Shown in pieces: positions 1 through 45,776 of a stretch of 64,000 bases of DNA. Both the position numbers and the translations under genes were made by a program. Origin of the DNA: Rhodamnia argentea (Eukaryota; Streptophyta; Magnoliopsida; Myrtales; Myrtaceae). The notes beneath the pieces are model-generated. The model was not told the origin of the DNA, made no database searches, and saw only the letters and a list, made by a program, of their open reading frames with translations. The DNA lies in contig NC_063150.1 of the NCBI RefSeq assembly GCF_020921035.1, forward strand, positions 32,659,826 through 32,723,825. Reading direction: 5' to 3'. Each line of letters begins with the position of its first letter. Position 1 is the first letter of the stretch.

Positions 1-537
1 GACCTCCGTCTACCATTGGGCGAGGGTCGCTAGGGTCGGCTAGCCCTCACTTGTGACTGGCAAGGGTCGCTGGCAAATGCTCGCTGGCTTGGCATAAAAC
101 AAAGGGAAAAGAAAAGAAGACAAAAATAACAAAAATTATCTATCTCGGCGTCGTCGATCGTGCCATATAGCACATCCGACGCCTATGTTAGAGATTTTTA
201 GCTAAAATTGATTGGATGTGCTCCCTTGGCAAAGTATCAAAATAATTAGAACTTAATTAATAAAATTGGAAATTTTAAAAGTGAATTGGCCAAAATACAA
301 TTTTGTTTTTGTCGAATGCAATCGATTTAGCACATTTTTGAACAATTTTTGCATGGCGCTTTGAGAGAGAGAATATGCGAAATATACCGGCACAAAGCCG
401 CGAGAAAGCGACGGCGGAGATATTTTATTTATGCGCGAACCAGACGCTGTCCGTCCGATCAGGAGCCTCCTCCTCCTCCTTTCATTATAATATGGCGCAT
501 TGACTCTGGAACTGTAAATTGTACAGCGCTCTCGCTC
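1..537. other. Left flank and upstream region of the unit 1 epimerase
   Basis: There is no gene here. Bases 1-159 have no counterpart in front of units 2 and 3 and include a GC-rich stretch with repeated GGGTCGCT-like words. Bases ~160-315 resemble the starts of units 2 and 3 only loosely, with many substitutions and small indels. From ~316 onward the three units are close to identical. The contrast suggests that 160-315 is a separate copy of a dispersed repeat used in recombination. A TATAAT-like run lies near 487-492, about 50 bp before the start codon; I do not claim it as a promoter. Confidence 0.55.
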
Positions 538-3500
538 ATGGCGATGGTTTCTACGACCTCTTCACTCGCCACCGTTACCCTCCCCAACTATCGCCGAGTC
601 AACCGGTTAGTGTCTCTCTCTCTGCGCAATTCATACGTGGAGGTCGTACTCCATGAACTTTGCGATCGATTTGCGAATTTCCAATTCTCGTTTTTTCTTT
701 TTCTTTTTTTGGCTGAAATTGGACCGCTCTCGCGGCGGTGGTGGTGGTGCAGATACAAACGCTTTCGCGTTGCAATGGCGTTCGCGAGCGCCGGTAAGGA
801 GACTGCGTCCGTGGGAGTGAGTGTGACGGAAGGCGAGGGGAAGCTGCCGAAGCTAGTGCTCACTTCGGCTCATGGTAGGTGAGTTACCGTCTTCAATCGC
901 TGCGTTGTCGTGATTTTGGATCTGAAAAACTGTGCGATTGTGGCCGTGGACATTTGAGTTCTTGCGTTAGTGGACTTGTTGTCGTGTTCTCTGGCGATAT
1001 CGGTAGTTTCGTGTTGCAGAATGTAGATCATCCAAAGAAGGAGTTCTATTGCAAAGTACATGTCTGAGAAATTCAGATTACGATCTCGTGATGTGATGCA
1101 TTCCCTACTTTGAAATGTCTTGTTGTGATTGATTCCATGAAAGGTTGAGTTAGCTTTGCGTTGTATCTTTGGATCGCACAAATCTGGGAAGTTGACCCCT
1201 GGAGAAATAGGGAGTGAGAATTTCTGACGAGACAGAGAAAGCAACTGTGCAACATATACTAGTTAGTCGCTTTCCTCTCCTGATCTTCACTTTCGACCTG
1301 GTTTGAATGGCTGTGGCGTGAATTCAGTATTCTTCTTCACGTTCATGAGAAGTTCCCAATTTGTACCTCAGGCTTTTGTGTGAGCGAAATGCCTCTTGTT
1401 TAACTGTTCAAGCATCTTTTAGTTGATCAGCCAGAGTACAAGTTTTAAATTGGTGCAAACTGCAAATGATGTCCAAGTGGTTTAAACTGTAGTTATAGTG
1501 CAGCTCTATGTTGGCTTTTCTATCAATTTGTTTTACTTTCGAAAAAAAAAAAAAATTGAATTGTTTTACTCAGACTTGAGTTGGGGTCTCAAGTGCAGCC
1601 CCATACACTGTTGCATGGCACCTTTCCTTCATGTTTCAGAAATGTGGGTTGGCAACAAGATTAACACTATGTATAACGTTTGAAAAATCATTTTCCTTTT
1701 CCGAATACAATACTAGGATGTGCAATTTTTAGAGGATTTCACTATTAAGTTGACTCCTATACTCTACGATTTTATCGTGATTTATCTTATGATGAGCATG
1801 TTTGAGCTTCTTCATTCACTTAGTTCTACCTTCTCAGTGAGGCAGAGATATATCTCTATGGAGGTTGCATCACATCCTGGAAAGTTGCCAAAGACAAGGA
1901 TCTTCTATTTGTTCGACCAGATGCTGTATTTAACAAGAAGAAGCCAATAAGGTGAACTTCTCCATTTCTAACCTCGTTCTTCTAGATTGCATTCTTATTA
2001 TTTGACAAAACTATGTGCATATGTCTTACTGAATTTGAGTTTCTGCAGTTGGTTTGACTGAATTTCGCAGTATGTTGAAGCATGCAAAAACTATTTTAGA
2101 GCACTGTACATGATGCTGGTATGAGAAAGTGACTACATTGACTTTGATTTGTGCCCATCTTTTTATTAATTCCGAGTTAGAATAGGCCAGTATATCCTTG
2201 AGTTATCACACTTTCCAATTGGTTCCATAACTTAAGGCCATTCATGTTGGGGAAATCAATAATCATCCAATGACGAAATGGGAAACTCATGCCTCTAATC
2301 CATGCTCCAGCCAAAGACACAGTGTGCTGTGGCAATCTGATAAGTCGAGCTGACATCTCAAACAAAACTAGAGAGATCACAGAAATTTCTCCTAATAGCC
2401 AAACTTTACACAATCTATGAACATAAATTTCTTCTAGTTGATTTGCATAGCTCCAGAGTGTGCTTCATGTGATCACTGCTTAGTGGTATAACTTTGCTCG
2501 TGTCTTTGCCTTGAAAATTTGTGGTTTCGCCTGCACTGACTTATATTTTCTGAGACAGTGGAGGAATCCCACATTGTTTCCCACAGTTTGGACCGGGTCC
2601 AATGCAGCAGGTATGCCTTGCCATTTTTCTTAGTGTCTTTATGAGGTTTTCCATATACACTCATGATCATTCACAACTATCATATGCTTGTACTAATGAA
2701 CTCAACTTTCGAGCAAGAGCCATCCACCCACGGATTACCTTGCTTGTGTCCCTATTTATTAACACTTGAGCTTGACAATGACTAGTAATGTTGTACATTT
2801 TAATCCAGTTACTACTGTATCGTGATTGCTCCTATACTTTGTTATGGCGGTGACGGAGAAATCATTCTGAAGCCAGCAATGGGTTAAGTAATTATGATTT
2901 TTATTCACTCTTCTGTTGGCTGTGAATTTTGTAGCATGGATTTGCAAGGAATATGGATTGGTCTGTTGCTGAATCCCAAAGTGAGGATGGGAATCCAATT
3001 GTAACCCTAGAATTGAAGGATGACCCTTACAGCCGTTCCATGTGGGATTTCAGCTTTCAAGCTTTGTACAAGGTGAGACATATTCCCCAAGCAAAAGATT
3101 CTGAGCTATCTGTCATGCTACCCTTACCCACATGATGCAAGACCCTCCAGTTAAATAAAGCACATCAACTCATTTTTGGGTTTCAAGTTTTAATTTTCCC
3201 TCGACCCTAAATTTGATTTTCAAGATTCTTGTGTGATTTATAGTTTAATAGCACTTGTTAGCATTTGGAAGTAAATTTTCTCTCTTTTGCAGATCAACTT
3301 AAGAGAGAAGAGCCTTTCGACCGAGTTAGTTATCTCAAATACAGACACAAAACCATTTTCATTCAATACTGCCCTGCATACATACTTCCGTGTAAGTACT
3401 GCGGTATAGTGCTCAGTAGATGATCTTAGAACGTGTACTACCCAGGAAAATTTACTTAAATCAAGGTGTAATTTGAAACTTACTGATCGGCGGACCATGG

Positions 3501-3851
3501 AACCATTGGAATCGTGGTGGATGTATGTAGAGTCAACATATCTATTTGTGGATATCTATAGGATGAGCACAAATATTAAGCACTGAATTCAAGCAGGAAA
3601 GTATGCTATGATTCTGCCTCAGATGAGCCTTATACTTGAGTATATTCCAGACTGTTGAGCAGATGATCATAATTGAATTGTTGTTCGATAGTTATTATCC
3701 TTGCAAGAATTGTGAAATTCAACATATCTGATCTTTCCATCCTATCGATTAGGCTTCTGTAACAGCTGCCTCTGTGAGAGGTTTGAACGGTTGTAAGACA
3801 TTGAACAAAGATCCCGATCCAAAAAACCCACTAGAGGGAAAGGAAGAAAGG

Positions 3852-3889
<38 letters not shown>

Positions 3890-4914
3890 CACGCGCATCA
3901 GAGTTACTGGAACATAATTTTGTTATCTCTAAAGCTGAAAGCTAAAGAGAGAAAATGAAGCCCTGATGGTAGACTTGGCAATTGGGCTGTTTTTTTTCGT
4001 GTATATCCATAGCACTTATGACATCAGAAAATTAATTGGAAGGAGGTAACCCAACCGTATATCTGGCACGCCATGTACAGTTAGTTTAACTATAACTATG
4101 TTGTAATTTATTTTCTGTGTCACCTGTGTTGAATTCTGCCTAGAAATACCCCGTTATTCTTCAAAGTGACTGTGGCTCACATGTTGGCTTGCCCACTCTC
4201 ATGTTTCCCTCACTCTATCAAAATGCGTCACAGCGATGTTACGTTGTCCAGATACATCAGCATCTCCGTTAAGCTCATTGCTTATGCAGTGGATCTCTAG
4301 CTAGAAATTATACTGCAGTTTCTAATAATGCCATATCATCTCAGGGGCATTGTCACATTTCCTGGATTTGTAGATTGCATTTATCTTGATGCTCCTGCTG
4401 AGGTGATTCTGGATAATGGTTTAGGAGATTCTATATCCATCCAGAATACAAAGTAAGTGTGTGTGGAAAACAGCCTATGATACTCTCTTGAGATCTGAAA
4501 ATTTTCCGTCTTCTGTATGGTTTACTTTTGGCCCTTGTCTCTATAGTTGGTCAGATGCTGTCTTGTGGAACCCGTATCTACAGATGGAGGCATGCTACAA
4601 AGACTTCGTTTGTGTTGAAAATGCCAAGGTACAGAACATGCTTAAATAGTTTAATGTGACTTGTTACCTCCAGGTTGTCTATTTATCATACTGGTGAAGG
4701 TGCGTTACTTTCAATAGGAGCACTGGCAGCCAATAAGAGCATTGGCAGCCAAGTGCTGAATGAATCGTGTTCAAATTTTTAAGAAACACTGTAAGGGGTG
4801 GGTCCGCCATTTTACCTATTGACTATTTGCCTCTTGATTTTGCGGCAGATTGGGAATCTGCAGCTAGAGCCTCAGCAGTCTTGGGTGGCCAAGCAGATAC
4901 TTAGCATTGCCTGA
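538..4914 (+). CDS. Glucose-6-phosphate 1-epimerase (aldose 1-epimerase fold), plastid type, intact copy
   Basis: This enzyme interconverts the alpha and beta anomers of glucose 6-phosphate. I read ten exons, all with GT-AG borders and matching phase: 538-605, 753-878, 1838-1951, 2559-2610, 2935-3072, 3293-3391, 3753-3850, 4345-4452, 4547-4628, 4849-4914. They give 316 residues, normal for the family. The Ser/Thr-rich start followed by basic residues looks like a transit peptide, so a plastid location is inferred. Family motifs visible in order are GGCITSW, GGIPHCFPQFG, HGFARN (H121), LHTYF (H195) and CVENAK (E292). H195 and E292 occupy the positions of the catalytic His/Glu pair known in yeast Ymr099c, as I recall it. 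It converges with the PPR gene 244 bp downstream. It is the only intact epimerase of the three units and resembles Arabidopsis At5g66530. Confidence 0.9.
3855..3886. repeat. (TC)n microsatellite at an epimerase 5' splice site, unit 1
   Basis: A run of about 16 TC units starts four bases after the GT of intron 7. The same site has a run of 14 units in unit 2 and about 31 in unit 3, so it is a length-variable tract next to a splice donor. Confidence 0.95.
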
Positions 4915-5157
4915 AGAGCTAAGAAGAAACTGTCCTTGTACTTTAATTTTTTTTTTTAAATTTCCCTTTAAATAATCATAAAGAATCCTTGAACACACAT
5001 AAGTCTATTGAGCTAGTGGAAATCTTGAGTTTGTATTTTTGGTTTCACTATTGTTTTAATTGTATTTTTATATTGTAATAACGTACTTTATAATTTCCAT
5101 GAGGAGACTATACTGCTCGATTTTTACTTTCATGTGGTTATACATGTCTGCATTTAT

Positions 5158-6978
5158 TCACCAGAAGTCCCCACAAGTACATATTCCATCTCTGAACAGA
5201 TGGAAACGACTTCTATGCCGCATGACTATCTCCCTAGAGTAAATCTTGGAGATCATTTTTGCTACTACATGGCAGTCCTCGCAAATACGAAGGTTTTTAA
5301 AGACTCGAATGATTGTCCCCAGTTTGGTGCTGATTAACCCAAATGCAATTGCCAGATTCTCACTGTGCTAATGAAGGGCTACCTCTTTTTCCTCATCCTC
5401 AAGATAAAGGAGCGAATTCCCAACTTCAGGTCTGTATCCCTCTAGTTCGAGTCTCTCCACTATCCGATCCCACATCTGGTGGATCTCCTTAAGTTGCTGG
5501 TGTTTACCGTCACCAGCTAAAAATTCGTGAACAGACCCGTTTATGGTAATGCTGCTGCACCCTGGAAATTTTCTTATTCCTTTTTCTTTCATCATTCTTC
5601 TTATTCTCACAGCTTCGTCCCATTCCCCTGATTCTACAAAAATACTCGCTGCATGAATATATCGACCACCATGTCCAGGGTCTACTTCAATCAGTTTCTT
5701 CCCAATCAGTTTGCCTAACTTGACATTTGCGTGCTTTTTGCAGACATTGAGGAGTGCTCCCCAAATGGCAGCATTTGGCTTGATGGGCATTGTCTCAATC
5801 ACCTCTTTGGCTTCCTTCAGCAACCCTGCTCGGCCAAGGAGGTCAACTAAGCAACCATAATGCTCAATTGTTGGGTTCAAGCTGTGAACTGACGTTATGC
5901 TCTTGAAGATTGATTTTCCTTCATGAACCAGTCCTGAGTGGCTACATGCAGTCAAAATTGCAGTAAGAGTGATCGAATTTGGCTTGATCCCTGCTTTCTG
6001 CATTTGCATATAGAAATGCATAGCTTCTCTTGCCTGTCCATGAATTGCAAAACCAGAAATTGCTGCTGTCCATATGGAGACACATTTCTTCTTCGATTTA
6101 GTGAAAACTCCTAAAGCTTCTTCCATGTGACCGCATTTGCCGCACATGTCTATCAGTGCACAGTCCAGCTCTGGGTCTACTTGTATCTGGTTCCTGTCGA
6201 TATATGTGTGAATCCATCTGCCTTGATCCACTGCTCCAAGATGTGCACATGCTGAAAGTGAACTTAACAGAGCTACATTGTCAGGTTTAACACCTGCAAT
6301 AAGCATATCCCGAAACAGTTTTAAGGCCTCCTTGTTCATTCCCACTTTCACGAAGCCAGATATCATCGTCGTCCACGAGACTACAGTTCTCTCCGGCATT
6401 TCTTTGAACAGTTTGAAAGCTATCCCCACTTCACCACTCTTAGCATATCCATCAATCATTGTATTCCACGACACAATGTCTCGTCTAGGAGCCTGGTCGA
6501 AGAGGAGGCATGCAATTTCCATTCTGTCAAACGCAGCATATGCATGGAGCAGGGTGTTGATGGCAAAGACATCCGAGCCAAATCCCATTTTCACAACTCG
6601 AGCATGGATTTGCATTGTCCCCTCCGAGGATGGCAACTTAGAACAGGCTCTGAGTAGGAAAGGTAAGGTGTGGGTATTGTGTGGGACTGAATTCCTTATC
6701 ATCTCACTGTACAGAAGAAGGGCTCGTTCTGATTCTGTGCTGTGGGAGTATCCTCTGATCATTGCATTCCAGATGAAGGTATTTCGACTGCTAGCCTTGT
6801 TAAACAACTTTTGTGCATATTTGATATCACCGGATTTCAGTGAGCTGCAGAAAGCGAGAAGTCTGCTTAAAGGGATGGGCTCCGAAACAAGTCCTCTTTT
6901 ATACATACTTGCATGAATCTGCTCTAGTTCGTCCATGGTCAAACAGACCTTGAGGAGAGAAAGCGGTTGCAAAGCCAT
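5158..6978 (-). pseudogene. PPR-DYW RNA editing factor, unit 1 copy, nonsense-truncated
   Basis: The open frame from ATG 6978 runs 536 codons to a TAG at 5368-5370. The same reading frame continues beyond it to the normal stop at 5158-5160. Units 2 and 3 have CAG at this codon (537), so one C-to-T change made the stop. The PPR array and E domain remain, but the catalytic part of the DYW domain (HSE at 538-540, CEDC at 566-569 in unit 3 numbering) is lost. The product could still bind RNA, as some E-type editing factors lacking a DYW domain do by recruiting a deaminase in trans, so complete loss of function is likely but not proven. It lies tail to tail with the unit 1 epimerase. Confidence 0.87.
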
Positions 6979-7944
6979 GGCTAGGCTCTGGAAACTTTTT
7001 GCTTCGAAGAAGACCAGCCTGTGAAGGAGTCAACTGACGAAATCCAGGATGGCGGCTTCTGTGGCTTTAATTCTTGGCAATGTGCATAAGGCCTGTGTGA
7101 TAAAGGAAAATATCAACTTCTTTGCTTCTGATTTGATATGGTATGTTGCTCTGCGTGTGTGCTGTGCTGGTCTTTCGTCACAGATGCTTGTCTTGATTCT
7201 GCTGGTGGGCCCTTTGCTGTTTGCTTCTGTTCTCATTTGCCCTCAAGTTGGCTATTAAGATTGAGGATTTTTACCCAGATTGGGGATGGTGTTTCTGAAT
7301 TTGAATGGGATTGACTTCGGGCTCAAGACAGCCGGCTCAGTGAGGCTCGGCTGGGTCAAAACGTGTGCGTGTGTGTTTTTTTTTCTCGTCTGTAAAGGGT
7401 CTTTTATCGGCGAGGATGGCTAGGTTCTTCCAGAAAGAAACAAATTCTAATTTCCTCTGTTGCGCGAGAATTAAGTCCGCCAAGATGTCAAATCCTTGAC
7501 CTTCTCACGCGTGTTCTTTTCGTTCCTAATTCTGCCCTTAGTTCTTTTTTCACTCATTCCACAACCACAAGGTATATATATTTTCTTCATCATGTGCCAT
7601 GTTGAAGAGGAATTGAACAATATTTTTTGTAATTTTGGATATCGCGGACTAATGTTTATGTATCATCGAAGAATATATATGCGGAATCAAGTAAATAACT
7701 TTGTATTATACATATGTCTCTTTTAATTGGGTGATTATTTTTGGGGTTTCATTCATCTTATTATCTTAAGTAGTGTTTTAGTAAATTTTAATCCTATAAA
7801 ATTAAACATAATCGGTAAATGCAATAGAAAATGTACTTAAATTAAACTGAACGGATCGAATATGAATATTGTCCTTTCGATTTTCTAAAGCAGAAAAAAG
7901 AAATCCTCAACACGGTTATGAGCTTGATAATCGGATTCCCCTAC
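6979..7944. other. Upstream region of the unit 1 PPR gene; nothing recognised
   Basis: This stretch is conserved in unit 2 (25794-26678), and its first ~280 bp in unit 3, where the duplication ends at 45776. It probably holds the PPR 5' UTR and promoter on the minus strand. The open frames on both strands are short and not shared in frame between units, so I call no gene. Confidence 0.5.
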
Positions 7945-8260
7945 TTGGTTCTTGCCTTTGTCACTAATTCTACTTTCACTTGCCATTTTTTGAGAGAATT
8001 GGGAGAATTGAGCGGATTTAAAGAATTTGAAGGAATTGAGATGAAGAGAGAATTTATGTGAAAAAAATGAGAGATATGAAGGGGTATTTATAATATAGGT
8101 TAGAAATTAGAAAAAAAAAAGAAAAAAAAAAGGAGGTGACCGTTGCTCAAACAAAGAGAAAGAGTCGTTGTCGGGGGCCGGTTCTGGTTTGGAATCGCGG
8201 GCTTGTCAATGGGCCGGTTCCAAATCGGTTCCGAGCCCACCTCAGCCCGTGGCCATGACT
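7945..8260 (-). mobile_element. hAT transposon remnant, unit 1 (5' end only)
   Basis: This matches 27587-27910 of unit 2, where it forms the 5' leader of a recognisable hAT transposase fragment. Here the adjoining ~908 bp of coding sequence are missing and only the leader with GC-rich GGGCCGGTTC-like runs is left. I could not define terminal inverted repeats. The assignment rests on the unit 2 copy. Confidence 0.5.
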
Positions 8261-8890
8261 AGGCATTGGTACTTAATCGAATATACGAACGAGCTGACTT
8301 TGTTGGGTAATCTAGTTAAGCTTTTGAACAAGGATTCAGACAATCCATTGGACTCTTGTGCTCCCGTGTTGGCTCTGTGAGCCGTTGAAAGTATCGAAAC
8401 CCGGCAAGGGTGTAAGGGACGGCGTTTCAAACTCATTATGGTGGCTGTTACGCGTTTCCTGCAATCACGTTATATTTTGCATGTTACCCGACAAACTTAA
8501 ACCTGTTGCCAACTTATGAGCTATGATTCATTTCAAGACGTGCCTTTGCAATTCAAATAACAGATTAAGTTAGAATCTGCATCACTAAATATATCGCACT
8601 CCGTACTTTTATCCTATTCGGAAACGACATACCCGAGCGTCGAAACTTCAGATGCACAGGAGAGGAACTTAGTTTGACGTGGCCAACAAACGAACGTTTT
8701 CAAAGTTTATGCAGTACAAAAAGGATTTAACATTTCATTAACGAAAAAGAAAAGTGTTTCTTCTTATGGAAATGATGCAAAAGGTTCAGGAATTAACCAT
8801 CCGGCTTGGCACGATGCGTTATAGACATTCTGAAAAACGTGACATATTCGTTTCAAGAAGCAAATTCGAACTACAAATAGGGAAATTCTT
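8261..8890. other. Shared intergenic DNA, unit 1; nothing recognised
   Basis: This is conserved in unit 2 at 27911-28548. A short open frame crossing 8168-8380 also exists in unit 2 with similar residues, but it has no family I recognise and overlaps the hAT-like leader, so it is not called a gene. Confidence 0.4.
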
Positions 8891-9895
8891 TCTGGGATAA
8901 TTGCATACATCCATATCTACCATGTTATAAATGAAAACTTTACAGCATCCGACCTTAGAGACAAAGCATGTTTTTCTTTTTGATACCAACTCCTAGCAAC
9001 AAATTGACAATATACAAGCTACAGGTAGGCAAAAGCTCCGGTAGTCTAAGACGACGCAAAATCACAAAGAAAAAAATGATCATTTAATCTTTCCTAGAGA
9101 AAGCTTTATCTTTGTAGGATGAAATCCAAATGTAACACCTATCAAAGTTTAAAAGGAGGACCAAAAACTCATTCGAAAAGAACCCGCAAAAATGGGAATT
9201 TCCAACTAGATCAAACACTCTATTTGATACCTCTAACAAGAAAGATGGTGTTCACAATGTTTAGTATTGGCCAGAAAAGCTTCCTTCATAAAATTTGTAA
9301 CGACTCTAATGAGGGTTAGTAGAGAAAGACTTTAAATTTAAATGAGGTCTCTCCAAATTTAACCAAAAAAAATATTGACAATGAAAAAAAAGAGAGCAAA
9401 ATTTCTGCACCTAATAATAATGGGATTTCTGCTCAACGGGTCATAGATAATCCGAGAGTGAAATTTCTCATTCCGCCCACGATTAAATTGAAAAAACGAA
9501 TCGTTGTTAGCTTTTTAATGGCATCTGAAGAAGAGGAGGGGGGGGATTTAAAAGGCCTACTAGCGATCTTTCTCGTTTTTTGTGTCCCGTGTCACGCAGT
9601 TTGTTTTCGAACTTTTCCTAATGGCATATATAATTTAGATCTTATCGACGGACGCTCCAAAAGCCATTTTCTTGTGTCATGTTTAGTTATGTTTTGGTAA
9701 TTGAAATATTTCTTGTTTGATGAGGAAGATCCTTCATTTATTTACTCAGATATTGCCAATGCATAACGACGTGACAAGAATAGGATGACCGGTACCCATA
9801 TATAAACTATCAAATTATTTCAATTCACATATAAATTCTGAAATTATTTATGGTCCAATTAAACCTCGTTGAGTGTTCCGTTCTTGCTGAACCGT
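8891..9895. other. 1005-bp segment present in unit 1 but not unit 2
   Basis: In unit 2 the flanks join directly at 28547-28548. A TTCTT direct repeat sits at both edges (8886-8890 and 9891-9895), and one copy remains at the unit 2 junction. This fits a deletion in unit 2 through microhomology, or an insertion in unit 1 with a 5-bp target duplication. The segment has no LTR ends, TIRs or recognised coding content. Confidence 0.75.
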
Positions 9896-10183
9896 CCTTA
9901 GACCCAGAAATTAAGGGGTAGAATCCATATATTGAAATTTTAATATGCCTAGTCTAAATTAAACCGAGCAAGTAAATGCAATACTTAAATTAAATCGACC
10001 GAACGAATATGAATATTATCTTTTTCATTTTTTAAAGCAGAAAAAATTCCACAACAGCAAGTCTAATACAATTAGAAATTTCCTAGAACCGTTCATATCT
10101 TCAACCGGTCAAATCATAATAGATCGCAAAAAAAATAATAATATCTCAATATTAATCTTGCGTTTTTTGGACGGAAATTGCCC

Positions 10184-10191
10184 TATAAAAA
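10184..10191 (+). promoter_or_regulatory. Candidate TATA box of the unit 1 NTF2-like gene
   Basis: TATAAAAA lies 126 bp before the ATG at 10317, followed by a GAGTGAGAGAAAG leader typical of a plant 5' UTR. In unit 2 the aligned site reads AATAAAAG (about 28843-28850), so the box is weakened or lost there. Confidence 0.5.
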
Positions 10192-10316
10192 GGAGTGAGA
10201 GAAAGACGAAACAAACCACAAACATCTGATTTCTTTTGCGCTGGGGCTTTCTCTCTCGTGGTGCCGGTATCGTCTTCTTCGTCGCGTGGGACTGAAGCAC
10301 AGAACCAGAAGCAGAG

Positions 10317-10868
10317 ATGACAACAATCGATGGAGACATCATGGATGTACACGCGGTGGCCAAGCAGTTCGTGGAGAATTTCTACAGGACGTTCGACGCT
10401 AACATTGCGGACTTGGCGAACCTGTACGAGGAAGACGCGCTGCTGATCCTCGACGGCCGGAGGATCCAGGGCAAGGAGGGTATCCTCGCCGAACTCACCT
10501 CCCTTCCCTTCGAGCAGTGTGAGCACCACATCGCCACCATTAGCTGTCTGCGCTTGGGGTGGCTGATGGTCTGCGTCCACGGCGACATCCGGCTAGATGG
10601 CAAGGAGGACGCCCTCCCTTTCACCCAGGTCTCTGTCTTCAACGAGGATCCATTTATGTTTTTATTCGTTTCTTTTCGACGGCATTCAATTGATTGAATC
10701 TTCTGCTTCTTCTTCGCTCAGACATTCTCTTTGACCCCAGCACCTCAAGGAAGCTTTTATATAGCGGTGGACGTTTTCCTGATGAACGATCACTGGGTAC
10801 AGGATGATGGACTCAACCAACGGGATTCTCTTCTCTTCGGGGGATATGTTTCTCGCTCTTTACATTAG
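10317..10868 (+). CDS. NTF2-like protein (nuclear transport factor 2 family), unit 1 copy
   Basis: Two exons, 10317-10628 and 10722-10868, join with GT-AG borders in phase 0 to give 152 residues. The body follows the plant NTF2 pattern: DVHAVAKQFVENFYRTFD, then LANLYEEDALLILDGRRIQG, LTSLPFEQCEHHIAT and FTQTFSLTPAPQGSFYIA. NTF2 carries Ran-GDP into the nucleus. Classical NTF2 has ~123 residues; this protein has ~9 extra residues in front and a different, longer tail of about 28 residues replacing the usual FRLNYA end. The central Cys-to-Val strand (CLRLGWLMVCVHGDI) is also diverged. It could be a specialised or drifting paralogue rather than the main transport factor. The unit 2 copy at 28975 is also intact. 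Confidence 0.82.
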
Positions 10869-33593: not shown

Positions 33594-36500
33594 ATGGCTG
33601 CGTCTAGAACTCCAAATAGTCTCCCACACTTACAATTAACTTCTGTAAAATTGGATGGAACTAATTATCCATCTTGGTCCATTGCTGTTGAAGTTTATCT
33701 TACTGACACTAAACAAAGTGATTATCTTAAATCTACGGCCCCTTTAGATCAGAGTAAGGTACCTGATTGGTTTGCTGGAGATGCAATGATCCGTACCCTT
33801 TTATGAAATAGTATGGCCCTAAAATTAGTCCTCACTTCATTGAGTGCAAATCTGCTAAGGAAGTCTAGGAAAAATGCGCCTTACTTTGCTCTGGAGAGAA
33901 TGACATGACATGAGTGTGTGACACTTGGGAGGCTCTATTTGATCTTCACCGTGGGAATCAATCCTTATCTGTGCATTACGCTCGTTTTACGACACTTTGT
34001 AAGCAATTGAATACTTACCTTCCAGCTTCGAACGATCCGACTATCCTCATTAAACGACAAGAGGATCTTCGAGTTATACTATATCTCAAGGCATTAGGGT
34101 CGGAATATTCCTCACTTCGCCGCCAGATTACCTCTTAGAGTTCCATTCCTACCGTGGATGAGATTTTCTCTCGAGCTCTTCGGTCAACCCCTGCTGAAAA
34201 GATCTCTACTCCATCTTTGGAGACAAGTGCTATGATTGCTCATGGCACTAATGCACGTGGAGCTCGTGGTCGGGGTTACAGGGGTCGTGAACATGGTTTT
34301 GCTCATAATAAAGGTCGTGATGGTAGTATTGGTGCTCGTAATGCCTCTATCTTTAGTGGTGGTCGTGATTCCCGCTACTGTAATCATTGTAAAAGAGATG
34401 GACATACAAAGGCTTATTATTATACACTACATCCGAAACTTCGGCCTACCTTTACAGCATATGTAGAGACGGACTAGACTATACCAGAATCTACTAGTGT
34501 ACGCAACATGAGTGGTTCGATTACGTTGACAGGTGCTAAGTATGATGCATGGGTTCGCTCCCAACAAGTGACGGGTCCTTCGACTCCTACTACAACTCTG
34601 GCACAAACATCAAAAGGTAGTTCATCCTGTTTACTCTCAGCAACGTCCGACTCTTGGGTCATAGACTTTGGAGCTGCTCATCATATGACTAGTAATTCTA
34701 AGTTGCTATCTTCACTTTGTCCTAAATCTCCTAGGTTGTCAAATTTTGTTACATTAGGCGATGGCTCACAATCTCGGGTTCTTGGTATTGGAATTGCTCA
34801 TTTGAGTCCATCTCTTTTTTTGTCGTCGGTCCTTCATCTCAAATACTCATATAATTTAATTTTCGTTAGTTCATTGACTAAAGAACTTAATCGTTCCGTA
34901 ACATTCTTCTCTTCTCATTGCGTTTTTCAGGATTTGAAGAATGGATTGATGATTGGTGAGGGACATGAATCCAATGGTACGTGTTACCTTGACAAGAAGG
35001 TGCTAGCTGCTACAGCTGTGAAACGCACATCCTCTAATGTATTTAGGGTGCATTGTCGTGCCGGTCATCCACCACCGAACACCCTTCGGCATTTGTTTCT
35101 TGACTTTGAGTCCGTGAGTTCTTTTCAGTGTGAGGCTTGTTGGTTTGGTAAACATCATAGGGTTTCTTTTCCTTCTCGTATTTAGAGTCGAGTGTCAAGT
35201 CCTTTTGAGTTGGTACACTCCAATGTTTGGGATCCGTGTCGTGTTTCTGATATTTCCGGTTTTAGATATTTTGTCACATTCGTGGATGATTTTTCCTTGA
35301 ATGACTTGGTTATTCTTAATAAAATATCATACTGAGATTTTTCTTTGCTTTCGCTTGTTCTATTTTGAAGTACTAAATCGGTACCACACTTCGTTAAAAC
35401 TTTGTGTTCGAGATAATGCCAAAAAGTATCTTGTATCACTTCGGGTTTTCAGCCTTTTCTTGATTCTCATGGCATAATTTATCGGACTTCTTGTTCATAC
35501 ACTCCTCAGCAAAATGGTGTTGTCGAGCGTAAAAATCGTCATCTTCTTGACGTTGCCATTGCCTCATGTTTCACATGCATCTACTTAAAACCTTTTGGGG
35601 ACATGCTGTTCTTACAGCCTATTTTTTTATTAATCGACTTCCTACTTCTGTCCTTCAGGGGGAGACACCGTTTTCTATATTACATCCAAATCATTCTCCC
35701 TTTGCATTACCTCTGCGTGTCTTTGGCTGTGTTTGTTTTGTGCATAATCTTACTCTAGGTCTTGAGAAGTTGGATCCTTGTGCGGAGAAATATATCTTTG
35801 TAGGATGCTCTCGAACTCAAAAAGGCTATAAATGTTATAGTCATAGACATTGTCGTGTGCTCGTGTCGACAGATGTAACATTTTTTGAAGATCATCCATA
35901 TTATATTACTCGGTTGGAACCTATAGCTACTCCCGAGAGCAATGAATGTGTTTTACCGACACTTCCCCCACTCATACTTCCTTGGGAACCATCAATAGGA
36001 TTTCAATTTGCTGACCGTACGGATCATTGGCGTGGTGCAGCTCCTACCACAATGGTACAGACTTCACCAACACATGATTCCTCTGTTCCCTCATCGTTTG
36101 CTGCACCATCCTCCGATCCTCATGTGCCCATAGCTGCTCGAAAAGGTACATGTTCTTGTGTTGGTCGCCCTATGGATCGTTGTACTCCTTATTCTGATCT
36201 TTCTAATTTTCTTCGCACTCGTCATCTTATTTCAAATTTCTTGTCATATGACCGTTTATCTCCTAATTTCTCTACATTTGTCTCATCCTTGTCCTCTGTT
36301 TCTGTGCCTAGTAGTGTTGTTGAAGCTCTTGCTCATCCTGGATGGTGTCAAGCCATAGAAGATGAAATGAAGGCGCCCATTGATAGTCATACTTGGGAAC
36401 TCACTTCATTACCTCCGGAGAAACAAACCGTCGGTTGCCGTTAGGTATTCACCGTTAAAATTCATCCCGATGGCACTCTTGATCGATTGAAGGCTCGATT

Positions 36501-37815
36501 GGTTGCAAAGGGATATACTCAAACATACGGTGTTGATTATGATGATACTTTTTCACCTGTTGCCAAAATTCCATCTGTTCGTGTCTTTATTTCCCTTGCA
36601 GCACGTTTTGGTTGGCTTCTTCATCAACTAAATGTAAAAAATGTCTTCCTTCATGGTGACTTGTCCGAGAAAGTGTACATGGAGCAACCACTAGGGTTTG
36701 TTGCTCGGAGGGAGAATTTGGTATGTTGCTTACATAAAGCTTTGTATGGACTCAAGCAATCTCCTCGTACATGGTTTGACAGATTTAGTGATATCGTTAT
36801 CGGGTTCGGATTAAAACAGTGTCAAGTAGATCATTCGGTTTTTAGTTCTATCTCCCCAGCCGGTTGTATTCTTACGGTGGTATATGTGGATGATATTATC
36901 ACTACTGGTAGTGATTCGGATGGTATCCAATGACTTAAGGAGTTTCTGCATACAAAATTTAATACCAAGGATCTAGGACGTCTATGTTATTTTCTTGGTA
37001 TTGAAGTTGCAAATCCACAGGTAGGTATCAATTTATCACAGCGAAAATATGTACTTGACATTCTTGATGAGGTTGGATTTCTTGGAGCAAAGCCGGTAGA
37101 TACTCCTATGGAACCCAATGTGAACTTGATCCAAAACATGGAGAATTGTTATGTGATCCAGGGAAGTATAGAAGATTAGTGGGAAAGTTGAACTATCTTA
37201 CTGTCACAAGGCCTAACATATCATTTGCTGTCAATGTAGTTAGTCGGTTCATGAGTTCTCCCCATACTACTCAATGGGATGTTGTACTTAGAATTATCAA
37301 GCACTTAAAGGGAGCGCCGGGTAAAGGGATAATTTTCAAGAATTGTGAACATCCGGACACTATAGGTTTCTCTGATGCGGACGGGTCCGGATGTCCTACC
37401 GATAGGAGATCTACATCGAGTTATTGTGTGTTACTTGGAAGTAATCTAATTTCCTGAAAAAGTAAGAAACAACATGTGGTTTCCCGATCAAGTGCTGAAG
37501 CAAAATATAGAGCTATGGCACATGTGACGTGTGAATTGCTCTGGTTGAGGATGTTATTATCAGAAATGGGTTTGCCTACATCGGATCCATCGGTATTATA
37601 TTGTGATAATCAATCAACTATTCACATTACAAATAATCCTGTCCTCCATGAGTGAACTAAACATATTGAAGTTAACTGTCACTTTGTACGAGAGAAAATT
37701 CAGAAAGGGAAGATTACTCTTCAACATACAAGAACGGAGAATCGGTTTGCAGATGTCTTTACTAAATCTCTTAGAGGGAGTAGAGGGAGTTTTTTATGTA
37801 ACAAGTAGGGATTAT
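33594..37815 (+). pseudogene. Copia gag-pol polyprotein, decayed, unit 2
   Basis: Same domain order as in unit 1, but mostly different disabling changes. Gag breaks at a TGA near 33804, followed by a 1-bp deletion. TAG codons lie near 34136, 34475 and 35185. Integrase has several small indels between 35290 and 35570. The reverse transcriptase stretch 36487-36933 is open, with YVDD. The zinc knuckle has lost its last cysteine (CNHCKRDGHTKAYY). The protease site reads WVIDFGAAHHM, with F for the usual serine. The integrase N-for-D change (HSNVWDP) is shared with unit 1 and so predates the duplication. Confidence 0.9.
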
Positions 37816-37845
37816 TTGATATTTACATCCCAACTTGAGGGGGAG

Positions 37846-37948
37846 TGTTAGAATAAGGGTAAAATAGTCATTTGAGTCAATTGGTCCTTTATATATAAGT
37901 GTATTCCTTTGTTAATGAATAATAATCATCTTTCTCTAAACCTAAACA
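37846..37948 (+). repeat. 3' LTR of the unit 2 Copia element
   Basis: A 103-bp LTR preceded by the GAGGGGGAG polypurine tract and followed by TCTCT. Confidence 0.93.
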
Positions 37949-39018
37949 TCTCTGATTGTTGTACTTAAGTTGTGATGTCCTCTGAGGGCTTCTCTTTAAG
38001 CATGAGGTACTTTCCTTTTCCGTTCTTCTCACAGCTTCAATGTGTGAAAACTAAGGGGAAGACTGTTCTGATTTTAGTTTGTCCATTACTTATAACATGT
38101 TTCAAGAGTTGCTTTTTTCTTTTTGTATAGGAGAAATTACCATGTTGTTCCTTACATGCTAAATGGCATAACATGATTATTCATGCCTTCGCTTTCTTTA
38201 TCTCCCATTTCTCCACCTCCTCCTGTACTTTCTTGCATCGTTCTTTGCTTGAGGCAGCAGTGTGTTCTCCTTGCTTCTTTTTCCTCAGGAACAAGGAGTT
38301 GATATTAGCTGCCGGAGTCGTTCCGCTTCTCCAGGAAATGATATCCAACCATGACTCTCATCCATCAGCAACGGCGCTATATCTGAATCTTTCCTGCCTT
38401 GAAGATGCCAAGCCCGTACTAGGCTTGAGTCAGGCTGTACCCTTTCTTACCCAGCTTCTTAAAGATGAAACTGCACCTCAGTGCAAGCTTGATGCTATTC
38501 ACGCCCTTTACAATCTCTCCACCTACCATGACAATATTGGATACCTGCCTTCGGCAGGCATTATCAGTGGCCTTTAATCTCTTCTTGCAGATCTAGTGAC
38601 CAAATGTGGACAGAAAAGTCAATAGCTGTCCTTATGAATTTAGATTCGAGCCAATCGGGGAACGATGAAATAACAATCTTGCCCTGAACTCCTAAGTTTA
38701 CTTGCCATTGGTACTTGACGCTGGGGAGCCCGTTGAGCATGAGTAAGCTGTGTTATACCTGCATTGGTGTCCAAGACATGAGGGGGACCCTAAGAGGGAG
38801 AGAAAAAGCTCAGAAACTTTTGATGCTGTTCCGTGAGCAACGGCAACGAGATCAATCTCCCGCCAATTTGAGCTAACGGCATCATCATTAGCCAGAGGAA
38901 ACGAGTCACAGGACTCTATCATCAGCTTCAGAAACCAAGCCGCTCTGTAAATCTATATCTAGGAGGAAAACAGGCAGAGGCCGGGGCTTTTTATGGAAGA
39001 GCAGGAGTTACTTGGTGG

Positions 39019-39601
39019 TATCTTCTCTTTTTTGCTGGCCAGGATTTTCCTTGAGATAAAAAGAGTTGTAGAGTTCCCCCATGCAATGAACGGAATTTGG
39101 TCTCTTTTCTGTGTGTCTGGACCTCTGGTAGGGGGATTGTTAATTCTTTTATGCCAGAATCAAAGGCTTAACTTGCACGGCCCGTTGTGTGGTGGCTGGT
39201 TCTGTTGTATACAAATTATGTTAAGTTGAGAATCAGCTTCAGTTGTGCCATGTAGCATGTCCGGTATCCATGTTCGCAGATTCTAGCTAGAATTGATTGG
39301 ATGTACTTAATTAGTAAAGTATCAAAATGATTAGGATTCAAATAATAAAATTGAAAATATTAAGATTGAATTGGCCAGAATGAAATCGATTTAGCACATT
39401 TTTGAACAATTTTTGCAAGGTACTTTGAGAGAGAGAATATGCGAAATATAACGGCACAAAGCCGCGAGAAAGCGACGGCGGAGATATTTTATTTATGCGC
39501 GGACGAGACGCTGTCCATCCGATCAGGAGCCTCCTCCTCCTCCTTTCATTATTATATGGCGCATTGACTCTGCAACTGTAAATTCTACAGCACTCTCGCT
39601 C
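39019..39601. other. Unit 2/unit 3 junction and upstream of the third epimerase
   Basis: Bases 39019-39244 are the tail of unit 2 and match 20301-20527. Bases 39245-39400 are the dispersed-repeat copy at the junction, nearly the same as in unit 2 and diverged from unit 1. No gene. Confidence 0.6.
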
Positions 39602-39675
39602 ATGGCGATGGTTTCTACGACCTCTTCACTCGCCACCGTTACCCTCCCCAACTCTCGCCGAGTCAACTGGTTAGC

Positions 39676-39676
<1 letters not shown>

Positions 39677-39709
<33 letters not shown>
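39677..39709. repeat. (TC)n microsatellite after epimerase exon 1, unit 3
   Basis: Expanded TC run just after the intron 1 donor. Unit 1 has only about six units here. A (GGT)n run at ~39819-39846 directly precedes the exon 2 acceptor. Confidence 0.9.
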
Positions 39710-39714
<5 letters not shown>

Positions 39715-42519
39715 TCATACGTGGAGGTCGTACTCCATCAGCATTGCGATCGCGTTGCGAATTTCCGATCCTCGTTTTTTTTTCTTTTTTTTTGGGCTGA
39801 AATTGGACCGCTCTCGCGGTGGTGGTGGTGGTGGTGGTGGTGGTGCAGATACAGACGATCTCGCGTCGGAATGGCGTTCGCGAGCGCGGGTCAGGAGACT
39901 GCGTCCATGGGAGTGAGTGTGACGGAAGGCGAGGGGAAGCTGCCGAAGCTAGTGCTCACTTCTGCTCTTGGTAGGTTGAGTTAGCTTTGCGTTGTGTCTT
40001 TGGATCGCACAAATCTGGGAAGCTGACCCGTGGAGAGATAGGGAGTGAGAATTTCTGATGAGACAGAGAAAGCAACTGTGCAACATATACCAGCGAGGCG
40101 CTTTCCTTGCCTGATCATCTTCTCTTTCCATCCGGTTTGAATGGCGTCGCGTCAATTCTGTATTTTAACTCACATTCATGAGAAGTTCAAAATTTGTTCC
40201 TCAGGCTTTTATATATGTCTGAGAAAACCACCTCTTGTTTAACTGTTGAAGTATCTTTTAGTTGATCAGCCAGAGTACAAGTTTTAAATTGGTGCAAACT
40301 GCAAATGATGTCCAAGTGGTTTAAACTGTAGCTATAGCACAGCTCTATGTTGGCTTTTCTATCAATTTGTTTTACTTTCGACCCCAAAAAAAAAAAAATT
40401 TTGAATCATTTTACTCAGACTTGCGTTGGGGTCTCAAGTGCAGCCCCATCCGCTGTTGCATGGCACCTTTCCTTCATGTTTCAGAAATGTGGGTTGGAAA
40501 CAAGATTAGCACTATGTATAATGTATGATAAATCATTTTCCTTTTTCCGAATGCAATACTAGGATGGGCAAATTTTATAGGATTTCACTATTAAGTTGAC
40601 TCTTATACTCTATGATTTTATCGTGATTTATCTTGTGATGAGCATGTTTGAGCTTCTTCATTCACTTAGTTCTACCTTCTCATTGAGGCAGAGATATATC
40701 TCTATGGAGGTTGCATCACATCCTGGAAAGTTGCCAAAGACAAGGATCTTCTGTTTGTTCGACCAGATGCTGTATTTAACAAGAAGAAGCCAATAAGGTG
40801 AACTTCTCCAATTCTAACCTCATTCTCCTAGAATGCATTCTTATAATTTGACAAAACTATGTGCATATGTCTTACTGAATTTGAGTTTCTGCAGTTGGTT
40901 TGACTGAATTTTGCAGTATGTCGAAGCATGTAAAAACTATTTTAGAGCACTGTACATGATGCTGGTATGAGAAAATGACGACATCGACTTTGATTTGTGC
41001 CCATCTTTTATTAATTCTGAGCTAGAATAGGCCACTGTAGCCCTGAGGTGTCACACTTTCCAATTGGTTCCATAACTTTACAACGTCTAAGAAACATAAA
41101 TTTCTTCTAGTTGATTTGCATTGCTCCAAAGTGTGCTGCATTTGATTACTGCTTAGTGGCATAACTTTGCTCGTGTCTTTGCCTTGGAAACTTGCGGTTT
41201 CGCCTGCACTGACTTATATTTTCTGGACAGTGGAGGCATCCCACATTGTTTCCCACAGTTTGGACCGGGTCCAATGCAGCAGGTATGCCTTGCCTTTTTC
41301 TTGGTGTCTTTATGAGGTTTTCCATGTAGGCTCATGATACTTCACAACTACCATATACTTGTACTAATGAGCTCAACTTTCGAGCAAGAGCCATCCACCC
41401 ACGGATTACCTTGCTTGTGTCCCTATTTATTAAAACTTGAGCTTGACAATGACAGTAATGTTGCACATTTTAATCCAGTTACTACTGGATCGTGATTGCT
41501 CCTATACTTTGTTATGGCGGTGATGGAGAAATCATTCTGAAGCCAGCAATTGGTTAAGTACTGATGATTTTTATCCACTCTTCTGTTGACTGTGAATTTT
41601 GTAGCATGGATTTGCAAGGAATGTGGATTGGTCTGTTGCTGAATCCAAAAGTAGGATGGGAATTCAATTGTAAACCCTAGAATTGAAGGATGACCCTTAC
41701 AGCCGTTCCATGTGGGACTTCAGCTTTCAAGCTTTGTACAAGGTGAGACATATTCCCCAAGCAAAAGATTCTGAGCCATCTGTCATGCTACCCTTACTCA
41801 CATGATGCAAGACCCTCCAGTTAAATAAAGCACATCAACTCATTTTTGGGTTTCAAGTTTTAATTTTCCCTCGACCTTAATTTTTATTTTCAAGATTCTT
41901 GTGTGATTTATAGTTTAATAGCACATATTAGCATTTGGAAGTAAATTTTCTCTCTTTTGCAGATCAACTTAAGAGAGAAGAACCTTTCTACCGAGTTAGT
42001 TATCACAAATACAGACGCATAACCATTTTCATTCAACTGCCCTGCATACATACTTCCGTGCAAGTTCTGCGGTATAGTGCTCAGTAGATGATCTTAGAAC
42101 GTGTACTACCCAGGAAAATTTACTTAAATCAAGGTGTAATTTGAAACTTACTGATCGGCGGACCATGGAACCATTGGAATCGTGGTGGATGTATGTAGAG
42201 TCAACATATCTATTTGTGGATATCTATAGGATGAGCACAAATATTAAGCACTGAATTCAAGCAGGAAAGTATGCTATGATTCTGCCTCAGATGAGCCTTA
42301 TACTTGAGTATATTCCAGACTGTTGAGCAGATGATCATAATTAAATTGTTGTTCGATAGTTATTAGCCTTGCAAGAATTGTGAAATTCAACATATCTGAT
42401 CTTTCCATCCTATCGATTAGGCTTCTGTAACAGCTGCCTCTGTGAGAGGTTTGAAGGGTTGTAAGACATTGAACAAAGATCCCGATCCAAAAAACCCACT
42501 AGAGGGAAAGGAAGAAAGG

Positions 42520-42522
<3 letters not shown>

Positions 42523-42586
<64 letters not shown>
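42523..42586. repeat. (TC)n microsatellite at an epimerase splice donor, unit 3
   Basis: About 31 TC units after the intron 7 donor, twice the length in units 1 and 2. Confidence 0.93.
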
Positions 42587-43674
42587 GCGCGCGCACATCA
42601 GAGTTACTGGAACATAATTTTATTATCTGTAAAGCTGAAAGCTAAAGAGAGAAAATGAAGCCCTGATGGTAGACTTGGCAATTTGTCTGTTTTTTTTTTT
42701 TTGTCTATATAGCACTTATGACATCCGAAAATTAATTGCAAGGAGGGTAACCCAGCCGTATATCTAGCATGCAATGAACAGTTAGTTTAACTATAACTAT
42801 GTCGTAACTTATTTTCTGTGTCCCCTGTTTTGAATTCTGCCTAGAAATACCCATTGTTGTTCAAAGTGACTGTGGCTCACATGTTGGCTTGCCCGCTCTC
42901 ATGTTTCCCTTACTCTATCAAAATGCATCACAGCGATGTTATGTTCTCCAGATACATCAGCATCTCCATTAAGCTCATTGCTTATGCGGTGGATCTCTTG
43001 CTAGAAATTATACTGCAGTTTCTAATAATGCCATATCATCTCAGGGACATTGTCACATTTCCTGGGTTTGTAGATTGCATTTGTCTTGATGCTCCTGCTG
43101 AGGTGATTATGGATAATGGTTGAGGAGATGCTATATCCATCCAGAATTCAAAGTAAGTGTGTGTGGAAAACAGCCTATGATGCTCTATTGTGGTCTGAAA
43201 ATTTTCCTTCTTCTTTATAGTTTACTTTTGGCCCTTGTCTCTATAGTTGGTCAGATGCCGTCTTGTGGAACCCATATCTACAGATGGGAGGCATGCTACA
43301 GAGACTTCATTTGTGTTGAAAATGCCAAGGTACAGAACATGCTTAAATAGTTTAATGTAACTTGTTATCTCTAGGTTGTCTATTTATCATACTGGTGAAG
43401 GGTGCATCACTTTCAATAAGAACATTGGCAGCCGAGTGCTGACTGAATCATGTTCAAATATTTAAGAAACACTGTAAGGGGTGGGTCAGCAATTTTACCT
43501 ATTGACTATTTGCCTCTTGATTTTGCGGCAGATTGGAAATGTCAAGTTCGATTTTTTGGTTTCACTATTGTTTTAATTGTATTTTTATATTGTAATACCG
43601 TACTTTTCAATTTCCATGAGGAGACTATACTGCTCGATTTTTACTTGCATGTGGTTATACGTGGCTGCATTTAT

Positions 43675-45495
43675 TCACCAGAAGTCCCCACAAGTACATA
43701 TTCCATCTCTGAACAGATGGAAACGACTTCTATCCCGCATGACTATCTCCCTAGAGTAAATCTTGGAGATCATTTTCGTTACTACATGGCAGTCCTCACA
43801 AATACGAAGGTTTTTAAAGACTTGAATGATTGTCCCCGGTTTGGTGCTGATTAACCCAAATGCAATTGCCAGCTTCTCACTGTGCTGATGAATGGCTACC
43901 TCTTTTTCCTCATCCTCAAGATAAAGGAGCGAATTCCCAACTTCAGGTCTGTATCCCTCTAGTTCGAGTCTCTCCACTATCTGACGCCACATCTGGTGAA
44001 TCTCCTTAAGTTGCGGGTGTTTACCGTCACCAGCAAAAAATTCGTGAACAGACCCGTTTATGGTAATGCTGCTGCACCCTGGAAATTTTCTTATTCCTTT
44101 TTCTTTCATCATTCTTCTTATTCTCACCGCTTCATCCCATTCCCCTGATTCTGCAAAAATACTCGCTGCATGAATATATCGACCACCATGTCCAGGGTCT
44201 ACTTCAATCAGTTTCTTCCCAATCAGTTTTCCTAACTTGACATTAGCGTGCTTTTTGCAGACATTGAGGAGTGCTCCCCAAATGGCAGCATTTGGCTTGA
44301 TGGGCATTGTCTCAATCACCTCTTTGGCTTCCTTCAGCAACCCTGCTCGGCCAAGGAGGTCAACTAAGCAACCATAATGCTCAATTGTTGGGTTCAAGCT
44401 GTGAACTGACGTTATGCTCTTGAAGATTGATTTTCCTTCATGAACCAGTCCTGAGTGGCTGCATGCAGTCAAAATTGCAGTAAGAGTGATCGAATTTGGC
44501 TTGATCCCTGCTTTCTGCATTTGCATATAGAAATCCATTGCTTCTCTTGCCTGTCCATGAATTGCAAAACCAGAAATTGCTGCTGTCCATATGGAGACAC
44601 ATTTGTTCTTCGATTTAGTGAAAACTCCTAAAGCTTCTTCCATGTGACCGCATTTGCCGTACATGTCTATCAGTGCACAGTCCAGCTCTGGGTCTATTCG
44701 TATCTGGTTCCTGTCGATATATGTGTGAATCCATCTGCCTTGATCCACTGCTCCAAGATGTGCACATGCTGAAAGTGAACTTAACAGAGCTACATTGTCA
44801 GGTTTAACACCTGCAATAAGCATATCCCGAAACAGTTTTAAGGCCTCCTTGTTCATTCCCACTTTCACGAAGCCAGATATCATCGTCGTCCATGAGACTA
44901 CAGTTCTCTCCGGCATTTCTTTGAACAGTTTGAAAGCTATCCCCACTTCACCACACTTAGCATATCCATCGATCATTGTATTCCACGACACGATGTCTCG
45001 TCTAGGAGCCTGGTCGAAGAGGAGGCATGCAATTTCCATTCTGTCAAACGCGGCATATGCATGGAGCAGGGTGTTGATGGCAAAGACATCCGAGCCAAAT
45101 CCCATTTTCACAACTCGAGCATGGATTTGCATTGTCCCCTCCGAGGATGGCAACTTAGAACAGGCTCTGAGTAGGAAAGGTAAGGTGTGGGTATTGTGTG
45201 GGACTGAATTCCTTATCATCTCACTGTACAGAAGAAGGGCTTGTTCTGGTTCTGTGCTGTGGGAGTATCCTCTGATCATTGCATTCCACATGAAGGTATT
45301 TCGACTGCTAGCCTTGTTGAACAACTTTTGTGCATATTTGATATCACCGGATTTCGGTGAGCTGCAGAAAGCGAGAAGTCTGCTTAAAGGGATGGGCTCC
45401 GAAACAAGTCCTCTTTTATACATACTTGCATGAATCTGCTCTAGTTCGTCCATGGTCGAACAGACCTCGAGGAGAGAAAGAGGTTGCAAAGCCAT
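43675..45495 (-). CDS. PPR-DYW RNA editing factor (CREF7-like), intact copy
   Basis: This PLS-class pentatricopeptide repeat protein would bind a specific organelle transcript and deaminate a cytidine (C-to-U editing). One exon of 606 codons runs from ATG 45495. Residues ~10-405 are PPR motifs (NAMIRGYSHSTEPEQALLLY, WNTMIDGYAKCGEVGIAFKL, WTTMISGFVKVGMNKEALKL). Residues ~405-495 are the E/E+ region (GALLNVCKKHANV, PGCSSI). The DYW domain follows, with the deaminase signature HSE (538-540) and CEDC (566-569), and ends CGDFW in place of DYW. It is the only copy of three with an open frame and both signature parts. From memory it resembles Arabidopsis At5g66520 (CREF7), a chloroplast editing factor. 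The epimerase neighbour resembles At5g66530, which supports orthology. The target site is unknown. Confidence 0.9.
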   Translation of the reverse strand: MALQPLSLLEVCSTMDELEQIHASMYKRGLVSEPIPLSRLLAFCSSPKSGDIKYAQKLFNKASSRNTFMWNAMIRGYSHSTEPEQALLLYSEMIRNSVPHNTHTLPFLLRACSKLPSSEGTMQIHARVVKMGFGSDVFAINTLLHAYAAFDRMEIACLLFDQAPRRDIVSWNTMIDGYAKCGEVGIAFKLFKEMPERTVVSWTTMISGFVKVGMNKEALKLFRDMLIAGVKPDNVALLSSLSACAHLGAVDQGRWIHTYIDRNQIRIDPELDCALIDMYGKCGHMEEALGVFTKSKNKCVSIWTAAISGFAIHGQAREAMDFYMQMQKAGIKPNSITLTAILTACSHSGLVHEGKSIFKSITSVHSLNPTIEHYGCLVDLLGRAGLLKEAKEVIETMPIKPNAAIWGALLNVCKKHANVKLGKLIGKKLIEVDPGHGGRYIHAASIFAESGEWDEAVRIRRMMKEKGIRKFPGCSSITINGSVHEFFAGDGKHPQLKEIHQMWRQIVERLELEGYRPEVGNSLLYLEDEEKEVAIHQHSEKLAIAFGLISTKPGTIIQVFKNLRICEDCHVVTKMISKIYSREIVMRDRSRFHLFRDGICTCGDFW

Positions 45496-45776
45496 GGCTA
45501 GGCTCTGGAAACTTTTTGCTTCGAAGAAGACAAGCCTGTGAAGGAGTCAACTGACGAAATCCAGGATGGCGGCTTCTGTGGCTTTAATTCTTGGCAATGT
45601 GGATAAGGCCTGTGTAATAAAGGAAAATATCAACTTTGTTGCTTCTGATTTGATAAGGTATGTTGCTCTGCGTGTGTGCTGTGCTGGTCTTTTGTGACAG
45701 ATGCTTGTCTTGATTCTGCTGGTGGTCCCTTTGCTGTTTGCTCCCGTTCTCGTGTGCCCTCAACTTGCCTATTAAG

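Follow-up and report, generated by a model that had tools for sequence, protein, structure and literature searches.

Complementary survival of an epimerase gene and a PPR-DYW gene across a tandem triplicate in Rhodamnia argentea

Introduction

Tandem duplication followed by the loss of different genes from different copies is known from mitochondrial genomes as tandem duplication and random loss (TDRL), as described in the available text of PMC4430869. A second described process is divergent resolution, or reciprocal duplicate loss, which causes hybrid incompatibility according to the accessible portions of PMC8042742 and PMC10837208. The nuclear locus of Rhodamnia argentea described here resembles TDRL in that tandem copies of neighbouring genes have undergone complementary loss of a different gene per copy. 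It differs, however, in its nuclear location, its three units, the relics which remain in place, the position of the survivors at the array edges (perhaps non-randomly) and the 38.8 kb which now separate the two whole genes. With divergent resolution it shares a single working copy left after duplication and a possible loss in some recombinants, but that process needs different copies to be silenced across genotypes, whereas here two different genes are involved on one assembled chromosome.

Both genes have likely counterparts in Arabidopsis. At5g66520 is CREF7, a factor required to edit site 1255 of ndhB (PMC8774829 and PMC4359148, in the portions available), and the accessible part of PMC10493611 names At5g66530 as the Arabidopsis match to a tomato protein of the stroma, a putative glucose-6-phosphate 1-epimerase. 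Our PPR gene is likened to the former by its PPR-DYW architecture and a predicted footprint which fits ndhB C1255, and our epimerase gene to the latter by membership of the glucose-6-phosphate 1-epimerase family. The two locus numbers are consecutive, which points to neighbours of long standing; if this means adjacency, the Arabidopsis genes lie side by side as they do here. On this comparison of architecture and family, Arabidopsis, which we take to hold one copy of each gene, contrasts with the three of each in R. argentea, most of them broken.

Results

The window, meaning the whole stretch of 64,000 nucleotides analysed here, covers positions 32,659,826 to 32,723,825 of contig C1 (NC_063150.1) in a genome of 346.66 Mb and 74 contigs, with PPR genes and plastid contigs supporting its plant origin. 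Self-comparison and self-BLAST resolved an array of three units and two related spacers of ~13 kb (Table 1). The unit copies lie head to tail, and each carries a glucose-6-phosphate 1-epimerase-like gene on the forward strand and a single-exon PPR-DYW gene on the reverse strand, placed tail to tail. A preliminary description had proposed three tandem units with one gene of each kind, and the self-comparison bears this out; its unit layout is amended in that the units measure 5.6–7.1 kb and no spacer copy follows the third. No fourth unit appeared when the self-comparison was extended upstream by 49,826 bases and downstream by 20,000. Outside the window, local tandem repeat arrays flank the locus at -13453 to -10441 and at 67475–68529. 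An open frame of 444 aa adjoins the array at 47175–48509 (+) and had no Pfam match at E 0.001.

Table 1. Features of the array, in window coordinates.
Feature	Position	Strand	Content or lesion	Basis
Unit 1	154..7259		epimerase (+), PPR-DYW (-)	self-BLAST, unit alignment
Unit 1 epimerase, whole	538..4914	+	10 exons, 316 aa	Pfam PF01263; PDB 2hta, 2ciq
Unit 1 epimerase, exons 1-5	538-605, 753-878, 1838-1951, 2559-2610, 2935-3072	+		
Unit 1 epimerase, exons 6-10	3293-3391, 3753-3850, 4345-4452, 4547-4628, 4849-4914	+		
Unit 1 PPR-DYW relic	5158..6978	-	TAG at codon 537 (5368-5370), DYW zinc motifs beyond stop	
Spacer 1	7260..20521		carries Copia-like element	
Unit 2	20522..26076		epimerase and PPR both broken	self-BLAST
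Unit 2 epimerase relic	20885..23738	+	exons 2-3 deleted, exon-9 acceptor lost, exon 10 stop	
Unit 2 PPR-DYW relic	23967..25793	-	TGA at codon 202 (25182-25184)	
Spacer 2	26077..39244		related to spacer 1	
Unit 3	39245..45776		epimerase relic, whole PPR	self-BLAST
Unit 3 epimerase relic	39602..43540	+	two splice sites lost, two stops, frameshifts, exon 10 cut off	
Unit 3 PPR-PLS-DYW gene, whole	43675..45495	-	606 aa, CREF7-like	
Unit 3 PPR upstream sequence	45777..47170		no counterpart behind units 1, 2	

With an assembly in that many contigs, end-to-end joining of allelic haplotypes or of reads might mimic such an array. If haplotypes had been joined, the adjoining flanks should reappear between units, however the sequence next to the outer ends does not recur there, and the spacer ends scored no higher against the adjoining flanks than shuffled sequence did. 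A sensitive search returned one right-side match of 64 bp (72%) about 28 kb away, together with short or broken left-flank pieces. Furthermore, most 350-column blocks differ by 1–9% between units, with unshared indels. Because the sequence adjoining the outer ends is not repeated between units, concatenated haplotypes are unlikely, and we judged an assembly artefact very improbable.

Relationships among the three units are patchy: the 351 single-difference sites fall into 183 runs, where shuffling gave 223 on average (P = 0.0005). Across 3435–3664 all 15 of 15 sites place units 1 and 3 together, apart from unit 2, and units 2 and 3 mostly group together across 154–441 and 3922–5482; within the PPR coding sequence alone the run test was not significant (P = 0.24). 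This patchiness probably reflects exchange or conversion among units.

Both spacers contain a Copia-like element (13972–19233 and 32686–37949), so labelled from its open frames alone, with 104-nt terminal direct repeats which lie at 13972–14075 and 19130–19233 in spacer 1. The element body differs between spacers by 8.4–12.4% per window and is transition-rich; the other spacer windows differ by 1.4–6.8%, except one at 14.0%. The spacer end at 19521–20521 has relatives at 33.82 Mb on C1 (91%, 78%) and on contig C10 (76%). Broken pieces in 9552–12366 and 29232–31123 share 75–90% identity with the left flank (-10446 to -8643).

The introns of the whole epimerase gene in unit 1 are all GT-AG. Its product matched Aldose_epim (PF01263) over nearly all of the protein (E = 2.9e-45; residues 56–313 to profile positions 2–298 of 299), as well as the hexose-6-phosphate mutarotase structure 2ciq (E = 2.9e-23) and 2hta; a comparison with NCBIfam gave no match. 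The gene probably encodes a glucose-6-phosphate 1-epimerase of the plastid type, presumably that of At5g66530, as judged from its family. Other PF01263 matches in the genome lie on contigs C2, C3, C4, C6, C7, C8 and C11. No close second epimerase was found among ten loci compared (16 fetched), three of which gave short matches only, at 32–64% identity, and seven none.

The two relics of this gene have no lesion in common. The exon-9 acceptor of unit 2 has changed from AG to CG, and its exon 10 stop arose as CAG to TAG. In unit 3, the exon-2 donor is altered by a 1-bp insertion which keeps the GT itself, the exon-3 acceptor reads AT for AG, and exon 5 carries paired -1/+1 shifts; exon 6 combines a TAA, a 2-bp deletion and a donor changed from GT to GC, followed by a TGA in exon 8 and a +1 shift in exon 9. 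Branch counts over the codons ungapped in every unit (about 212 of 317) were 2 synonymous and 7 nonsynonymous changes for unit 1, 1 and 9 for unit 2, and 4 and 10 for unit 3. None of these branches shows clear constraint, not even that of the whole unit 1 copy, for which the sites are few and the branch is unrooted.

The unit 3 PPR product has the PLS repeats, E/E+ motifs and DYW deaminase domain of a PPR-PLS-DYW editing factor. Pfam returned PPR families, E_motif and DYW_deaminase (residues 514–606, E = 4.9e-37), and the E+ motif scored 21.4 bits, under its curated cut-off of 24. Each of the other two PPR frames is open apart from its one nonsense codon. The exon lesions and PPR frames thus agree with the preliminary description that the epimerase is intact only in unit 1, the PPR gene only in unit 3, and neither in unit 2. 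No close second PPR gene was found elsewhere among the 72 of 869 candidates scored, the next-best by score being 43% identical and the other listed matches at most 47%.

With two three-state sites excluded, the PPR branches carry 6 synonymous and 18 nonsynonymous changes (unit 1), 14 and 16 (unit 2), and 8 and 6 (unit 3). Omega on the unit 3 branch was 0.21 (P = 0.004 against neutrality). The unit 2 branch, at 0.32 (P = 0.002), indicates purifying selection despite the stop, and the unit 1 branch stood at 0.83 (P = 0.42). Differences in omega among branches were not significant (unit 1 vs 3, P = 0.08; 1 vs 2, P = 0.16; 1 and 2 together vs 3, P = 0.23). Two apparent changes in unit 2, M1I and A2P, were rejected as alignment artefacts of a 6-nt indel.

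The TAG of unit 1 falls after the E motifs and directly precedes the HxE motif of the DYW domain, such that a truncated protein of 536 aa would keep the E and E+ motifs and lose the deaminase zinc motif. Such a protein might work as an E+-type factor with a DYW domain borrowed in trans, and DYW2-dependent editing at the sites of E+ proteins is named in the accessible part of PMC7076377. Against this stand the omega of the unit 1 branch, with 12 of its 18 nonsynonymous changes upstream of the stop, and the loss of editing when the deaminase motif of CREF7 is mutated (PMC12906803, in the text available). We regard a working unit 1 protein as very doubtful.

The repeat code of the unit 3 protein was read from positions 5 and last of each repeat, with the last motif set at -4 and the motifs cut in the way we assume to be right, which places repeats NN, ND, NT, TD and TN at -13, -11, -10, -9 and -6. 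ND specifies U, and NN and NT specify C or U. The assignments of TN to A and TD to G, as well as the -4 register, follow the available text of PMC9750133, where the code is described as only partly predictive. For the target, ndhB was read from nuclear plastid copies; contig C23 ends at 82,500, short of the plastid inverted repeat. The copy at L065 reads GGTTTTTTCGGAAAACTC upstream of a CAT codon, and in it all five scored repeat positions fit ndhB C1255 (C or T being accepted at two), the score covering five of the 11 motifs and leaving the remaining six (three L and three S type) outside. In two plastid loci, counting both strands, 13 of 2,276 C's fitted equally well (0.57%). On this predicted footprint, the unit 3 PPR fits the editing factor CREF7, with its known site ndhB C1255. 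The nuclear copies of plastid ndhB at L062, L065 and L067 are in several states of decay, and those at L065 and L067 still encode His (CAT) at the position of the codon which Arabidopsis edits.

The unit extends 384 bp upstream of the epimerase ATG at one end and 281 bp upstream of the PPR ATG at the other. The left flanks of units 2 and 3 match each other and that of unit 1 is different, and the right flanks of units 1 and 2 match each other and that of unit 3 is different. In unit 1, position 154 lies within a dispersed repeat, which is cut in units 2 and 3 (at 154 and 160), hence the left context of unit 1 looks older. Among the dispersed matches listed, 12 of 37 span position 154 and 25 do not (40 of 119 candidates scored). 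A weak inverted repeat (-275 to -24 against 63 to 362; 56% identity, with a score of 34 where 50 shuffles reached at most 20) hints at a transposon across this position, however our argument relies on the dispersed-repeat matches instead.

At the right edge, the spacer start (7260–7925, searched with the repeat starting near 7926 excluded) matched, beyond itself and its spacer-2 copy, two short stretches within the spacers and three in the left flank, at about -2152 to -2065 and -1550 to -1381 (five of five candidates scored). The sequence at 45777–47170 gave one match in the genome, itself. Judging by the spacer-start matches, the joint that follows units 1 and 2 would be derived and unit 3 would have its native right flank, and older sequence is probably kept upstream of the unit 3 PPR. 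Copy number alone does not polarise this edge, both candidate upstream sequences being local in genome searches.

Discussion

The locus is a tandem duplication with complementary loss, an already known kind of event, in which each gene keeps one whole copy and does so in a different unit. The preliminary description termed it reciprocal silencing. Complementary loss is real on this one assembled chromosome, but the term overstates the case, as two different genes have each kept one of three copies, survivors would differ by unit in two-thirds of random cases, the two genes are unlike in lesion number and in selection signal, and no second haplotype was seen. Decay is unequal, with the epimerase relics wrecked and the unit 2 PPR still showing purifying selection.

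This kind of decay after duplication is ordinary, and the place where the duplication was cut may have decided which copies survived. On the simplest reading, the array would be new at its internal joints and native at its outer flanks, and it is the copies beside the native flanks which are whole. We think it rather probable, from the layout of the sequence, that duplication breakpoints clipped the 5' sides of the genes and that the outer copies survived for this reason. A convergent nuclear pair, the epimerase and a CREF7-like PPR-DYW gene, would have been duplicated in tandem, and the array would later have reached its present three units and two transposon-bearing spacers. The breakpoints most likely clipped the 5' side of both genes, as proposed from the 384 bp and 281 bp between the unit ends and the two ATGs. 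Native upstream sequence would then remain only in the outer copies, namely the unit 1 epimerase at the left edge and the unit 3 PPR at the right, and unit 2 would retain that of neither gene. The inner copies would have lost control sequence and then decayed, and exchange or conversion probably made the relationships among units patchy.

The three units, two related spacers and distinct outer flanks support this history, as do the older-looking left context of unit 1, the spacer-start matches, the low omega of the unit 3 PPR, the unshared epimerase lesions and the non-random runs of relationship among units. Counting against it, the unit 2 PPR, which on this view lacks its native upstream sequence, is constrained, and so either was functional at first or received its sequence by conversion from a live copy; omega does not differ significantly among the PPR branches; a purifying signal is lacking on the branch of the whole unit 1 epimerase; the right-edge argument uses short, locally repeated matches; most of the dispersed matches listed (25 of 37) do not span position 154; and the left flank at about -10 kb has broken pieces in common with the spacers (82–90%). 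Some of the same observations would suit a plain tandem duplication in which all six copies were expressed at first, chance mutation left one of each, and complementarity was luck. The unit 2 PPR, with its one stop and its constraint signal, was probably long live, lesions are independent between copies, and survivors in different units are the commoner random outcome, as noted above. Yet the two copies whose upstream flank looks older are the very ones that survived, an outcome which by arithmetic has a chance of 1/9 if survivors are random; this is weak evidence, and we consider pure luck an unlikely, though serious, alternative to clipping by the breakpoints.

The preliminary description further held that haplotypes losing a unit by unequal exchange could lack an essential plastid function. 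The exchange risk is reasonable by arithmetic: from gene and unit coordinates, and assuming uniform crossovers, a unit 1–unit 3 exchange would keep the two genes whole only where the crossover falls within about 351 of 7,106 bp (~5%; unit-1 coordinates 5017–5367). Lethality and an essential function are not supported, as the PPR fits CREF7, a factor for ndhB editing, and other ndh-editing mutants have reduced or unchanged NDH activity (PMC8774829, in the text available). In the accessible portions of the literature searched we found no statement on the growth of cref7 or on the loss of this epimerase.

An automatic annotation could report three genes of each kind at this locus, although only one epimerase and one PPR gene are whole. 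As the locus shows, tandem duplication can move two neighbours, whose products are probably plastid proteins, about 39 kb apart. We tentatively offer, as possible but not yet probable, a general rule by which geometry sets the survivors of a tandem array, with the copies at opposite edges of a convergent pair keeping their native promoters. If true, complementary decay would be automatic whenever a duplication ends just upstream of both convergent genes, and the neighbours would be pulled apart. Duplication breakpoints may then predict surviving copies, a pattern which is countable across plant genomes.
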